This document shows, one piece after another, positions 9,860 through 46,331 of a stretch of DNA of 64,000 nt. This DNA comes from Branchiostoma floridae. Lineage: Eukaryota; Chordata; Leptocardii; Amphioxiformes; Branchiostomatidae. Location of the stretch: positions 11,937,450 through 12,001,449 of the forward strand of contig NC_049992.1 in the NCBI RefSeq assembly GCF_000003815.2. The letters are read 5' to 3'. A program made the translations under genes and the position numbers. The first letter of the stretch is position 1, and each line of letters begins with the position of its first letter. Under the pieces are notes generated by a model. That model did no database searches. It saw nothing but the letters and a program-made list of their open reading frames with translations, and was not told where the DNA came from.

Positions 9860-12800
9860 CTACAATGGTCCAGAATCCTGAATCTGTCCATCTGGCGATG
9901 TGCCCGGCTTGTCTTGCCCCTGCCCTTGCCCCGCCCGTTTCCGAGCCGGTCCGCTCCCTGATTGGCCGTGTCTCAGGATGGACCCAAACCGAGGCAGAGA
10001 GACTGCAGTGGCCGTTGTGGACACCTCTCCAATCAGGTTGACAAGATCACCGACCGTCACGTCTTGAGGGCTGACATCTTCATCCTCATCTTCCTTCAGA
10101 AGAATGTCCTTTTTACCATCAAGGGATGTTTTGTCTCCTGAGATGACGCCATCCAGCATGGCCTCCTTGCTTGCCTTAGCCTGTTCGTCCTCCATCGCGT
10201 GTTTCAGGCATCTGATTTCCGACAGGCGGTAGTACGACTTGACTTCGGTGACGTTACTAGCCAGGTACACCGACAGGAGGTTGATATCGCTGAACCAGCT
10301 TTGGGGAACCAATGCGTCCTTTTCTACACACACGAAAGGGAGCATTCTGAAAATCTTGACGTTGTCCCTTTTCTTGCCCACATATTTGATGATGATGTAG
10401 ACGAAGATGAGCAGAGCGATGAGGACGTAGAAGGCGATGTTGATGACGCAGGCGATCCGGAACATGGCCACCCCGGGCAGTTTGCAGTTGACGGCGTCCG
10501 GAATGCCCTCCATGACCAGCAGCTCTCCGGAACGGATGTTGCAGGAAAACTCGTCCGGAAGGTTCTCGAAGTAGAAGTACAACAGATAAGCTGAAATCGA
10601 TACAAGATTTAAGAGACATGAGAAAACACGAACAGCCTTTTTAAAGCAAGTCGGATCTTGTGCATTCCTGACATCATGCACAATTTGGCCACTGTCCAAC
10701 TACCGCATGCATACATATCGTTTTGGAGATGTGTCAAAACCTCCAAAATATCAATAGTGATCTTTCCAGCTTTTAATGTTAGCAGTGACATGTTATAATT
10801 AGATCTGGCTGCCAGTAGATCTGGCTACATTCGTTGATTTCTTGTTGTATCCATCCAAAGGGGGGGGGGGGGGGTCTAAGATAGTTCCATTGACGTTTTG
10901 ATACCATAGGGGCGGGGTTAACCAGTTGTTATTCACTGACTTCTAAGGTACAGTTTTGGAAGGCGGATCCCATTTCTTTCCCTTTCGCCACCTTTTACCT
11001 CTCCAACCGAAGCCAGATTTTTACACCCACACGGAACAAGGAAGTCGTGTAAAGTGTTTTGTTCAAGTACGTCTTTTGTCAGGAACCTCGGGAATGGAAA
11101 CTATGACCTCTCAATTTCACGACTGATAGCCTAGCTTTTCAGCCATTGGAAACAATAAAGAGTGTACTTAAAATTATTCAACAAAAAAAGAACTCACTGA
11201 TGGTGCAGGCGATCCCCAGCAGGACCAGGACCTGCCTGATGAGGTACAGCCTGATGAGCTGGTTTTTCTTGACCTTACACAGGAGGTAGTTCTCAAACAG
11301 CAGGAAGGCGTACGGCTTCTCAGTCTTCACCTGGGGAGCAACAATGGGTGGCAACGTCAGTTAAAGGGGAAATTATGGCTAGGTATGTGACAAAGGGAAT
11401 TATTGTAGAGAATGCAATTTTTGCAACAAATTGCATTCCCATCGATTGTTACAAATTGAAGCACAGTATGGATTGATCACGTCAATGGAAAATTGAATTG
11501 TCCAAAAGCATAATCCAATCTCTGAAGTGGGAAGGTAAGGTTTGCCCCACCTTCGCCATCTCGGAGTCGAACTCCGTCCGTGTCATGGTCAGGTCGCCTG
11601 GGTCCCGTTTGCCCAGGATCTCACACACCAGCTGGACAGCTCGGCTGAACGTGTTGTCAAACTCTGTCAGGATCACGCTCATCTCAGCCTGGTGGCGACG
11701 GGAGGAGGTAGATTAATGAACTGTCTTATATATATATCCATGTACAGTGCAAAAACGTCGATGAAGGTTAGACATCCAGATACGCCCAAAAGTAGTTACT
11801 TAGGCAAAATCATATCCAGCTGCTTGAGTAACTGCTTTTTGGCGTACAGTACAAAAATCATACGAGTTGTGCTTCAAATGTTCGTTGTATCATTTATGTA
11901 GATGGCATGGGACTCGCCCCTGTATGATCCGAGCCTCGTACAACATGTAAGATATACCACAACTTTACCTGTAAAGTTGGCACAGCCGTAACGTTCCAGA
12001 AGACAACAGGCAGGTACATAATGGCGCCGATGCACAGCAAGATGTAGGGGAAGATCTTGTGTTGGAAGAGCGACATCGGCTGTGTTATCACCCTCTCTCC
12101 GTCTAGGAAACATAAAGTTAAGTTTGTTAATGTTATAGGTTGAGTGGAAACAACCCTATAGTGTAGTAGTGTTTAAAAATTAGGTAATATCTTGTCAGCA
12201 TTCTTTTGAATGGTTAGCTTTTCAAAGACACACTAGGGTAAGCTAAAATACATTCCAGTGCAATAGTGGTCAGTCAGGAATGCAGGAGGGGGAATGTAGC
12301 ATTTTCAAGATCGGAAGAACAGCAATCCAGGGGAGGGTAGTGGCCAAAGTTTGATATATGCTTTCATAATTCTAGGAACAAATTGTGCATTAAGTCAAAC
12401 ATTATGGAAAAGTCAATAGTCTCCATGTCTGGTAAAATTGGATTTCTATAGATCAGCTACAGAGAAGGGATATAAGAAGCCTTGGAGATGTAACACAGCC
12501 GCCCTACCTGTGGTATTAGCCCAGCCCGACGCGATCCTAGAAAATTTCAACTCTGTCCAGCAGTAGACATTTAGGTACTTCCCATGTGCCGACCCAAAGT
12601 CCTGAGGCGGGAAGCATGCTATCACTGAGTCCTCTGTAACCAGTAGAGAAAAGATAACCCAATTACTATGGAAACTAAGATGGCTTTACCTGTGCCAACG
12701 ACGACGTTAGCGTCGCGTAGTTCGCCCCAACAGTACGCAGAGATGACGGCGCTCTGTGCCCAGCCAAAATGTAACGGGGGGAAGCACGATATGTGGTTCG

Positions 12801-13364
12801 AGCTGGCTGTCGGGAGAAGAAGGTTTCATCGTTAATTTGTACCTAACTGAAGACAGATACAGTTGTTCGATTTGTAAAGCACATGACACTAGTATGCTGG
12901 CCAACGAATGCTCATCGTAATTGCTCATCCTCCATAAACAAAAAGCTAAGGAACATCAAATAGGTCAGTGAACTGCTTATTGTCACTTGGTTCCGACACA
13001 TTTCCTACACTGCTCATGAGCGAGTCTTCTCTGCGCTACACTGGTGGCAGCGGTGGCCTACACTGGTGGCAGCGGTGAGATTTTATTCCCTGTTGATGAT
13101 TATACCCTGTTAGCCTTATCAAACCTATGCTTATGAGAAATGGTGAGCAACTGCAATATAAATGTAAGAATTACCTGTGGCAAATTCCTTGGCGAAGTAC
13201 AGGGACATGAGAAAGAGAGGCACGCCCACAGTGACGCACTTCACCATCTTGTCGAACGGCAGCTCGGTGTCGATATTATGTCCCTCGATAGAAGGCTTCC
13301 TCTTGCCTGGTGCCGCCAGAGAGTCGCTCAAGATGGCGTCTACGGCATTGATAGCGAACGCCAT
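9860..13364 (-). CDS. Pannexin (innexin-family channel) with alternative extracellular-loop-1 exons
   Basis: Minus-strand exons: 13364-13175, then 12806-12690 (A) or 12633-12508 (B), then 12102-11969, 11688-11551, 11330-11198 and 10590-9860. The protein is 480 aa with A or 483 aa with B. It tracks human PANX1 throughout: TM1 with FDKMVKCVTVGVPLFLMSL, loop 1 with CFPP...YCW, TM2 with KIFPYILLCIGAIMYLPVVFW, TM3 around LIRQVLVLLGIACTITYLL, loop 2 with DEFSCNIRSGE and VNCKLPG, and TM4 ahead of a long acidic, proline-poor tail. Each extracellular loop keeps its two cysteines. The family forms large-pore plasma-membrane channels that release ATP, and gap junctions as invertebrate innexins. Exons A and B both start and end in phase 1, so either joins its neighbours in frame. 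Cephalochordates are known to keep this family and to lack connexins. Confidence 0.9.
12508..12633 (-). CDS. Pannexin alternative exon B (loop 1, Ser version)
   Basis: The exon is 126 nt, with acceptor actggttacag and donor gtaggg. It encodes the same loop as exon A: CFPPQDFGSAH and VYCWTEL with the same 17-residue cysteine spacing. The PANX1 Trp74 position is Ser here. It ends GWANTT, an N-glycosylation sequon absent from exon A. It begins and ends in phase 1, like A. Confidence 0.85.
12690..12806 (-). CDS. Pannexin alternative exon A (loop 1, Trp version)
   Basis: The exon is 117 nt, with acceptor tcccgacag and donor gtaaag. It encodes loop 1 with CFPPLHFGWAQ and AYCWGEL. The two loop cysteines are 17 residues apart, exactly as in PANX1, and a Trp aligns without gaps to PANX1 Trp74. 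It has no N-x-S/T sequon. Only 56 nt separate it from exon B. Confidence 0.85.
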
Positions 13365-42500: not shown

Positions 42501-45500
42501 TTTTTGACCCTCTAAAACGAAATTTCCCGCATTCTGTGAGGCAAAAAAATGTGGATTTTATGCGTCCACATCAACGAAGAGAAAAGCGGGCGGGGAGGGG
42601 CGGTAATCCAAGGCGATCTTTTCCACCACACATGTACGAAATTTACACAAAAGAAAACAAATTAATGTTGTAGTTGGAAGAGACTTGGGTACATTTTAGC
42701 GATATCGTTACGAACACCGCTTCAAGACTGCTTCAATCTTTCCAAAACGGGAGTTATTTCGACCAATTGCAACCTACAAACTTGCCAAAAAAATTTCGCG
42801 CCACCATGATTACGTCATATGCTGCAGAGAGCCCGCTGTCACGAAAGTAAACATCGTAATGTTTTATCCCGTTGCCGTCCGGGAACCATTCCGTATACAA
42901 AGAACAGATGCACGTAGGATTGATATTCATACCAATTTTAGTTTCTATAGTTTTCTTAAACTTCGTGCGAACATGGAATCACACGACAGAGGCGGCTGCA
43001 GAAAATTTCTCAGTCTCAGTATGGGGAGGGCAAACTATATCAACGTAATCCTTGGGGGTCCGGGGCATGCTCCCCCGGGAAAATTTGGAAACCTTGACTG
43101 TCTGAAACGATCTTTCCTAAATTTTGATGGGCAAAATTTGCTGGCAGACTAAGCTAAGTTTAATAGCCTTTCTATTAGAACTTCACATGGTTTTGAGGGC
43201 GACGACGCCCCAACGTATTTCCACGATTTCGAGCGCCGGGCATGGCACGAGCCGTCGCAAGGTAGGTCTGGAGAAATGTCATTCAAATGATGAAGTTTGG
43301 ACCCTCTGAGACACGATTTTCGGCATTTTGAGGGATAAATTTCGCTGGTAGACTATGCTAAATGTAATGACAATTTTCTGTCAGAGGAAGAGATTTTTAA
43401 TGGCAACGAGTGCCGCAGTGTTGTGTGCGCCGGAGGCGCAAGCCGTCGCAAGGGACGTCCAGAGAAAAATTAAAATGTTGACCATCTGAAACTTCATTTC
43501 CTGCATTTCAGGGGCACATTTTGGTTGTATTTATCAAGGCCCCTAAGGCAATTTTTTTTCAATGGCCCCCCCCTCGGCTCAAAAAATTTTTCAATGGCCC
43601 CCCCCTCGGCTCAAAAAATTTTTCAATGGCCCCCCCCACCTATGCACCAGCCCTCCCCCCCCGGTAAATATCGTCAGGTCCCTTAAGGCATTGGTGCTAG
43701 TTACTGTACAATCATGAGTAAGAAAAAGAGCACTGAATAGATACAGGTGACACTTGTAAAAAAAACTTTTGATATCTTTCATCATTCTCACAGTTTTCTC
43801 TTTCTTTCCAAATCACAGAGCTGCATGGTGAATCATGGTTTGATGTAGAAGATGAACAGGCAGGAGAACAAGTATGCTGTAGTCCTGTTGATACAGAGGA
43901 AAGCACTGACTACTTATCCTCTGCAGACAACAGTGACCATATGTTCAAGAACAGGCCAGACTCTGACCAATGTACATCTCAACATTATAGCAAGAGCCAC
44001 ACTACAGAAAATCATATCAAGTCACTCTCACATGAGACACAGGATCAGGATGATTTTGTATCAGAAGACATTGGGAAGACAGATGTTGATGATGTGACAG
44101 TTGACCACAGTTTAGTAGAGAATAGTCAGCATAGCTTATCAAACATAGAGGAAGGCAAAGAATCCACAAATGTTAAGTACTACTGCAACCAGCCAGAGTG
44201 TGGCTACAAAACTTTCAAAAGTCGGACTGGGTGGACGTTACACATGAGGGAACACAAGAGTGACTATAGGTACCGCTGTGAGCACTGTGACTTTGGCTGT
44301 TTTACAGAAAGGAGACTCAAAGAGCACATGGCTTGCAAGCACACTGGAACACCTATCTGTTTCTGTAGCTTCTGCAAGAAGGGCTTTGTCACTTTTACAG
44401 GTCTACGCCACCATGAATCTCTCCATAAAAATGAACTGTACCCTTGTGATTACTGTGACAAAGTCTACAAAAACAAGAAAGACAAAGAGAAGCACAAGAG
44501 GACTCACCAGCTGAGTTTTGCCTGCAAACTTTGCTCGGCTACATTTGTTTGGAAACATCATGCAGTAACGCATCTTAAAGTGGTACATAAAAAGTTAGCT
44601 GAGGAGGTAAAGTCAGACTGGGACAAATCAATGAAGGAAGTACCTAAGGAAGTCCCTAAAGTAATCAGAAAGTCAAGTTCCAGCATAGATGAAAGTCAAG
44701 CTGTTGAAAGTTCAAAGGGTATTAGTAAAGGAAATGTAGAGAAGGAGAAAAAGGCAAGAAGGTCAAATAACAAGGATGGTAATTTTGTAAAGGAAAAAGG
44801 ACGTAAAAGTTTACGGCTTCAAAGAAAACTTGCTGTAGGTAAGAAATCAAAGGAGACATCATGTGGCACAGAGAACAGTCCTTCACTACAGGAGTCAGGT
44901 GGTAACAACAAAATGAAAACAGATGATGCCTTATGTAGTGTCAGTACATTAGATGGAGCTGGTTTAGATGCTGCCACTCCTGATGTTTTAGACATAGCAA
45001 GTCAACTGAAGAAGGAGACCAGGTACGAGTGTACTGTGCAAGGGTGTGGAAAGACATTCAAAGCCAAGAAGGTGTACAAACTCCACATGAAAGCTCACAA
45101 TGAGTGCAATGATGTCACCATGCAGCAGATAGAAAACATGGACAAAGATGGCAAAGACTGCGAGAACAAGATCGCATGTCCAGTAGAAGGCTGTGGGAAG
45201 AAGTTCAAGAACAAAAAGGTTTTCAAGTTGCACATGCAGGGCCATAACGATAATTATCCCTTCAGATGTGACATTTGTAACTTTGGGTGCTTCCAGCAGC
45301 GTAAACTGAGGGAGCATACAGCTACTGTACATATAGGTATTCCTGTGTGCTTCTGTCCTGTATGCGGGAAGGAATTTCTCTCCTACTCAGGGCTGAACCG
45401 CCACAAGTACACCCATCGGGAGGAGGTGTACAAGTGTGATGTTTGTGAGAAGGAGTACAAGAATGCCAAGGAGAGAGACAGGCACAGGCGCTCACACGAG

Positions 45501-46331
45501 CAGAGGTACGTTTGTCCGATATGCGAGAAGAGGTTTGGCATGAAGCACCACCTGAAGAGCCATTACCGCTACATGCACACAGAAGCCACTCCAGACGTCC
45601 ATCCTTCAAATGCGCACTCCAACTCACAAGTAGAAGAACAGCCAATCACCACCATTCTAGATGGAGGAGTAGAGAAAACAGGGAGACTGAAAAGGAGAAA
45701 GACAGAAGATGGCAATGATTTAACTGGTCAATCCTCTACATGGTCAAAAGAATATCCCTCCATGATAAGTGTTGAGGCAAAAACTCCCTTTCCAGCCAAC
45801 AGTAAAGAATCAGATACTATGGAGCCAGAATTGCAAGCAGCAATAGATAATTTCTCCGAGGAAGGTGATCCAAAACAAGAGTACACTACAAAAGAAAGAG
45901 TGTTAGACCCAGGGAAGTACATTCCCAGTGAGGGAAGGAAAGGAATTTTTATGGACATCTTTAAATTGATGGGCGGTTCAAAAATTGGTGACCAGAATGG
46001 TATAGAGAGTGAAAGTCTGTCTCAAGAAGATGGTAACAATGGACAGATATCAAGACAATACTATCAGAGTAGAGAAAATTCCAGTCAAGCAAGGGGCCAA
46101 GATATTGTGCCAATGGATCTAACTGGAGGCAATACTTCTGCAGTTTCTGTTGAGTCATCTCAAGCAAAATGCAGTGCTAGTTCATCCAGAAAAAAGCTAA
46201 CAAGCCAAACCAAACTCATACTGTCTGGTACGATGTCCTGCAATGTCTGTGGCAAGAAGTTCCTGTCATCGGCCGGACTTCAGCGGCACAAACTCTCACA
46301 TTTGACCCAGAATAATGTAGGAGCTGTGTGA
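36568..46331 (+). CDS. Zinc-finger/STPR locus, isoform with module A: 12-finger C2H2 protein
   Basis: Shared exons 36568-36618 (17 codons, phase 0) and 37421-37559 (phase 1 end) join the terminal exon 43819-46331, giving 900 aa. Module A has C2H2 fingers 1-5 at about residues 183-320, fingers 6-11 at about 466-650 and a lone finger near 870-891. Fingers 1-5 match 7-11 one for one, including an unusual FGCF second finger and a CFC-start third finger, so the array arose by internal duplication. Basic linkers rich in Lys and Ser separate the blocks. A nuclear DNA-binding role is expected. AATAAA at 46427 supports a terminal exon. The coding start is the ATG at 36568; the open frame continues upstream, so a longer N terminus is possible. 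The first exon and long intron (37560-43818) rest on splice phase alone. Confidence 0.65.
38475..41123. mobile_element. Two identical-length 479-bp TIR repeats flanking a 1.7-kb segment
   Basis: Copies at 38475-38953 and 40645-41123 have the same orientation, the same length and only about three differences that I can see. Each starts GGTCTCATTCCGG and ends CCGGAACGAGACC, so each is itself an inverted-terminal-repeat unit. The outer flanks are both TTGA (38471-38474, 41124-41127) and the inner flanks both TTAA (38954-38957, 40641-40644). The 1,691-bp segment between has no recognisable protein. It lies in the long intron of the zinc-finger/STPR locus. It could be two MITE copies or one composite element moved as a unit; the matching outer 4-mers favour the latter. 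Confidence 0.65.
41910..43682. mobile_element. Harbinger-like non-autonomous DNA transposon
   Basis: The 1,773-bp element is flanked by TTA on both sides (41907-41909, 43683-43685). The ends begin GGGACCTGACGTTATTTAC and, reversed, GGGACCTGACGATATTTAC, followed by a G-run and GAGGGCTGGTGCA. A 3-bp TWA duplication with G-rich ends fits PIF/Harbinger. Subterminal blocks repeat AAATTTTTCAATGGCCCCCC. The interior holds degenerate units that match, in reverse orientation, those inside the element at 26815-28056. No transposase is visible. Confidence 0.7.

Follow-up and report, generated by a model that had tools for sequence, protein, structure and literature searches.

The 64,000-nucleotide (nt) stretch of Branchiostoma floridae DNA analysed here (NC_049992.1, positions 11,937,450 to 12,001,449; the window) carries on its minus strand a pannexin gene (13364-9860) made up of six exons and one extra. 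Two neighbouring exons, A and B, each code for a complete first extracellular loop (loop 1). We consider it probable that an old tandem duplication in this main lancelet pannexin gene produced the pair and that transcripts are spliced with A or B, yielding a PANX1-like, sequon-free form and a form with a sequon (N-X-S/T) and a serine ring.

Structure of the gene and of the exon pair

Each of the two includes the CFPP and YCW motifs, with 17 residues separating the cysteines. The exon lengths are multiples of three; both exons are in phase 1 at both ends and open in the correct frame, and each has its own consensus splice sites. Between them lies an intron of 56 nt, while the adjacent introns measure 368 and 405 nt. 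These data confirm the loop-1 exon pair of the preliminary description, whose coordinates for both exons and the short intron proved exact to the base and which had put the neighbouring introns at about 370 and 400 nt. Four spliced forms are open, with lengths of 480 (A), 483 (B), 522 (A+B) and 441 amino acids (neither exon). Since 56 is not divisible by three, retention of the short intron would shift the frame. The remaining introns of the gene are 280, 220 and 607 nt long. Exons 3 to 6 were named by alignment to pannexins (TM, transmembrane segment):

Exon 1, 13175-13364, minus strand: 190 nt; start codon, N-terminus and TM1; ends in phase 1 with the donor CAG/GTAATT
Intron 1, 12807-13174, minus strand: 368 nt
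Exon A, 12690-12806, minus strand: 117 nt; loop 1 version A, CFPPLHFGW..AYCW; tryptophan at the PANX1 W74 position; without sequon
A-B intron, 12634-12689, minus strand: 56 nt, GTAAAG...TTACAG
Exon B, 12508-12633, minus strand: 126 nt; loop 1 version B, CFPPQDFGS..VYCW..WANTT; serine at the W74 position; NTT sequon
Intron 3' of exon B, 12103-12507, minus strand: 405 nt
Exon 3, 11969-12102, minus strand: end of loop 1 and TM2
Exon 4, 11551-11688, minus strand: cytoplasmic loop
Exon 5, 11198-11330, minus strand: cytoplasmic loop and start of TM3
Exon 6, 9860-10590, minus strand: rest of TM3, loop 2 (two cysteines, without sequon), TM4, C-terminus and stop

A codon model trained on 264 kb gave weakly positive values for all seven exons (0.06-0.23 bits per codon). 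Within intron 1, a short tandem repeat was seen by eye at about 13077-13035 (minus strand), with two copies of a 22-nt unit and a CACCGCTGCCACCAGTGTAG core. The same intron holds 11 YCAY motifs within its 368 nt.

The two loop versions are clearly homologous. Their local BLOSUM62 score of 86 compares with 20.0 ± 4.3 for shuffled sequences, and 0 of 2000 shuffles reached this value, which rules out chance similarity or a pseudo-exon. The protein alignment extends over 33 residues without a gap, 14 of them identical. At the DNA level 71 of 132 alignment columns match, and a DNA search of the 513,431,437-base assembly, with the best candidates scored, found the block of A, intron and B at one place only; together these results rule out a duplication introduced by the assembly. 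With the Nei-Gojobori method (NG86) a nonsynonymous distance (dN) of 0.535 was obtained, and the synonymous distance (dS) was saturated and thus not computable. With these distances the exon duplication looks old, and the comparison of the two exons points towards a tandem duplication of the loop-1 exon as the origin of the pair. Despite the saturated synonymous sites both copies have kept the frame, the cysteine spacing, CFPP and YCW.

The assignment to the pannexins is supported by full-length alignments of both isoforms to the solved pannexin structures, in which no gap falls between the loop-1 cysteines of either cassette. In phmmer searches, isoform A matched PANX3 with an E-value of 5.9e-58 (199.9 bits) and isoform B with 4e-56 (193.8 bits); the match to PANX1 (6m02) reached 193.0 bits for A and 173.8 bits for B. 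Within the 20-residue core of the loop, A has 10 residues in common with PANX1 and B has 7. Either isoform has two cysteines in each extracellular loop. A protein lacking both exons gives no Pfam Innexin match at an E-value of 0.001. By homology, the gene product is predicted to form a large-pore oligomer of subunits with four transmembrane segments. Judged by sequence similarity, this is the closest lancelet gene to the vertebrate pannexins among those found in this analysis.

Predicted consequences of the proposed exon choice

In isoform B, the NTT sequon of loop 1 (N103) is the only extracellular N-X-S/T of the protein. A sequence scan of isoform A gave no extracellular N-X-S/T, loop 2 likewise being free of sequons; its two sequons are located, by homology, on the cytoplasmic side or where TM2 has its inner end. 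At the position of W74 of PANX1, the alignments place tryptophan in A and serine in B. In frog PANX1, mutation of W74 or R75 has been described to disrupt ion selectivity (PMC7108861). With a single exon choice the pore ring and the sequon would therefore change together. This swap, which would toggle the only extracellular sequon along with the pore-ring residue, is the main consequence of the arrangement and was not seen in the preliminary description.

The two proteins would be identical in all other parts and differ at the mouth of the pore. Isoform A would have a tryptophan constriction like PANX1 and would be unglycosylated, possibly able to dock. Isoform B would combine a serine ring with the loop-1 sequon, suggesting a putative glycosylated single-membrane channel. 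In this way, splicing within one gene would do what vertebrates do with PANX1, PANX2 and PANX3, namely vary the ring position and the glycosylation sites.

The short intron and possible mutual exclusion

An intron of 56 nt would be too short to accommodate the U1 and U2 particles on both ends, and a transcript would then contain one of the two exons, seldom the pair. To judge this length, introns of the same genome were estimated from the spacing of neighbouring exon matches, corrected for overlap. Checked by hand on the pannexin gene, the formula gives 56 and 371 nt against true lengths of 56 and 368 nt. The shortest of 60 myosin-head introns measures 111 nt and the shortest of 52 kinesin introns 122 nt, after removal of two of the 54 pairs in the kinesin table that reflect a tandemly copied exon instead of an intron. 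None of the 112 estimated introns is thus shorter than 100 nt, for a sample of introns under 4 kb between scored exons and a precision of about 10 nt, and the shortest is twice as long as the A-B intron. Short introns could be hidden within single-exon matches with a surplus of more than 30 nt. Such surpluses occurred in 4 of 142 myosin matches, all of 198-309 nt, and in 13 of 134 kinesin matches. Five of the smaller kinesin surpluses (33, 36, 51, 54 and 63 nt), inspected by eye, read as coding insertions; of the other eight, two measure 36 and 54 nt and six fall within 132-408 nt.

The best branch-point-like adenine is nucleotide 27 of the intron, 27 nt from the donor and 29 nt from the 3' splice site, as located with an approximate home-made matrix; the site is weak. 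A scan for motifs of splicing factors (Rbfox, PTB, YCAY, QKI, CELF, ESRP), run without a control, gave nothing convincing.

The length of 56 nt, compared with a minimum of about 111 nt in 112 introns, fits steric mutual exclusion. The anatomy of two alternative loop-1 exons in the preliminary description is supported, and its steric argument is strengthened by the intron comparison; the splicing block itself, and with it the exclusivity of A and B, we infer from the shortness of the intron. Steric exclusion by the 56-nt intron is plausible, not proven.

Comparison with the published lancelet innexin

According to Welzel and Schuster (eLife 2022; PMC8769644), all chordate innexins bear an extracellular sequon, and lancelets have one innexin only, with a single sequon in a loop 1 that holds more than two cysteines. 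Given its single sequon and its additional cysteines in loop 1, this lancelet innexin is probably the gene described here. A model containing both exons would show four loop-1 cysteines and one sequon, while A or B alone gives exactly two cysteines. From the published description we infer that the lancelet sequences are joins of A and B. If so, the statement on the sequon is true of the model, not necessarily of the proteins, and the exon pair exists in each of the lancelets aligned there. The authors treat the lancelet innexin as one protein that always bears a sequon, and the main text of the article contains no words starting with splic or isoform (PMC8769644).

Weighing of the explanations

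Several observations weigh against the exclusive use of A or B. The strongest is that the published lancelet models, which may be backed by transcripts, seem from their description to contain A and B together. Double inclusion preserves the frame, as the preliminary description had noted, and the resulting form of 522 amino acids is open. The Pfam Innexin profile (PF00876, cut-off 25 bits) gives its highest score among the four forms to A+B (34.1 bits), followed by B (29.2 bits) and A (19.3 bits). Some animals routinely splice introns of 50-60 nt, and the intron sample covers two gene families.

On these grounds both exons might be included constitutively, so that the pannexin would have loop 1 twice, with four cysteines, for which the count of more than two cysteines reported by Welzel and Schuster (PMC8769644) also speaks. 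Yet 56 nt is half the smallest length estimated among 112 introns, and each cassette by itself aligns with the loop of pannexins with no gap from one cysteine to the other. In pannexins the cysteines of loop 1 and loop 2 are described as disulphide-bonded to each other (PMC10997603). With two cysteines in loop 2, the A+B form would leave two loop-1 cysteines unpaired. Gene predictors tend to join phase-compatible exons, and such joining would explain the A+B gene models. Constitutive inclusion of both exons therefore appears improbable to us. We give slightly less credit still to the idea of a gene with effectively a single protein product, one cassette being a relic or seldom used, in line with the score of isoform A under the Pfam cut-off and with the weak branch-point-like site. 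A decayed exon should have lost its frame, splice sites and motifs, and both cassettes retain frame, consensus splice sites, cysteine spacing, CFPP and YCW with the synonymous sites saturated, which weakens this explanation.

Compatible with the preferred exclusive use of A or B, the swap may tune gating or selectivity only, with neither isoform forming gap junctions. The change from tryptophan to serine at the PANX1 ring would suit such a role. In amphioxus larvae, juxta-reticular junctions connect some of the motor neurons and are distinguished by the authors from gap junctions (PMC5314712), and reports that lancelets may lack gap junctions are cited in the 2022 study (PMC8769644). The same article lists seven sequon-bearing invertebrate innexins that belong to functional gap junctions, so that a sequon alone does not decide. 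We regard tuning without gap junctions as a fair candidate, though short of an even chance. The bolder proposal, in which one lancelet gene would make by exon choice both an unglycosylated gap-junction innexin (A) and a glycosylated single-membrane channel of the pannexin type (B), is in our view rather unlikely. If exon A is spliced in by itself, isoform A would be a candidate gap-junction protein.

Relation to known systems

The lancelet gene shares with PANX1 and PANX3 (and PANX2) full-length homology, two cysteines per extracellular loop, the 17-residue spacing and the ring position in loop 1. To our knowledge, vertebrate pannexin genes have one loop-1 exon each. In vertebrate pannexins the ring residue differs from gene to gene (W74, I74, R89; PMC10997603); the lancelet gene, in contrast, holds both ring versions in one gene. 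Its loop 2 lacks the sequon of PANX1, and the NTT of exon B is not at the sequon position of PANX2 and PANX3.

Exons 2 and 3 of alpha-tropomyosin, like other steric mutually exclusive exons, are tandem alternatives with matching phases and a too short intron or branch-point distance, an anatomy that the lancelet pair resembles. Unlike the tropomyosin exons, the lancelet exons code for the pore loop of a channel and not for a coiled coil. The IIIb and IIIc exons of Fgfr, also present in amphioxus, are likewise a choice between tandem exons in a lancelet that alters an extracellular domain; they differ in belonging to another protein, in having a known regulator, Esrp, and in having been tested with minigenes (PMC5703972). 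Innexin splice variants are known for Drosophila Inx8 and for Inx1 and Inx3 of Aedes, where the C-terminus is affected, and mutually exclusive loop exons are unmentioned in the passages on these variants (PMC8580445). The view that no pannexin or innexin with this arrangement has been described is not contradicted in the open-licence papers surveyed, most of them as titles and openings of abstracts.

Further pannexin-like loci

A search of the genome with the A+B protein returned weak matches beyond the main gene. Five divergent pannexin-like loci (L001-L005; eight rows grouped by hand) lie within about 52 kb on one contig (G000 C9:18602900-18656300, partial). They consist mostly of one large exon from loop 1 onward, with a loop-1 spacing of CX17-18C, and all five loop-1 sequences stand behind an ACAG/GT acceptor. 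At two of the loci a separate exon for TM1 was observed, its phase-1 donor being GTAAG. One convincing loop-1 cassette per locus was found in a motif scan of stretches of 1.5-3.1 kb. At the sequon position of PANX2 and PANX3, four of the five have N-X-S/T. L001, the only one of them compared with solved structures, matches PANX2 at 8.1e-17.

A second, dispersed group comprises 11 places on C18, C11, C3, C10 and C165, some of them fragments (14 rows grouped by hand). Its members include:

L006-L008
G000 C11:9385593-9386573
C10:5977535-5978335
others

L006 was the only open reading frame (ORF) of this group compared with structures and matches PANX1 at 5.4e-6, more weakly than the C9 group. The three ORFs read, L006-L008, have a long loop 1 bearing several sequons. 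LRRC8 does not appear in the match list of L001 or of L006, and Pfam found no leucine-rich repeat (LRR) in L006 and L008. Four pannexin-like ORFs run against Pfam gave Innexin scores of 23.0, 14.1 and 24.5 bits, all below the cut-off, and in one case no match. The PF00876 profile searched against the whole genome gave 0 matches, likewise 0 in 14 control genomes, and is hence silent on absence. If the two divergent groups count as innexins, the statement that lancelets have only one may be incomplete.

Other features of the genome and the window

Elsewhere in the genome, part of a kinesin motor exon with its P-loop occurs three times in near-identical units at intervals of 151-154 bp, which probably arose by recent tandem duplication (L030, G000 C2:31966800-31968300, about 807-1330). 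In the window, CUB-, sushi- and trypsin-like segments follow each other in a row at 62967-54769 (minus strand) and resemble, by eye, a MASP/C1r-like complement protease. A long ORF at 43773-46328 (plus strand) contains two clusters of C2H2-like zinc fingers, also by eye.

Implications

Lancelets are reported to be without connexins, and their sole innexin is held in the 2022 study to be glycosylated, so that it may not form gap junctions; this view underlies a bottleneck scenario of connexin origin. Should exon A be in use, a join in the gene model probably accounts for the published cysteine count, a sequon-free chordate innexin exists, and the question of lancelet gap junctions becomes directly testable. 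Splicing would then achieve the diversity of the pore ring that is held by separate genes in vertebrates. Should isoform A indeed form gap junctions, the rule of an extracellular sequon in every chordate innexin would fail, and the loss of innexin gap junctions in the other chordates would amount to the loss of an exon-A-like form.
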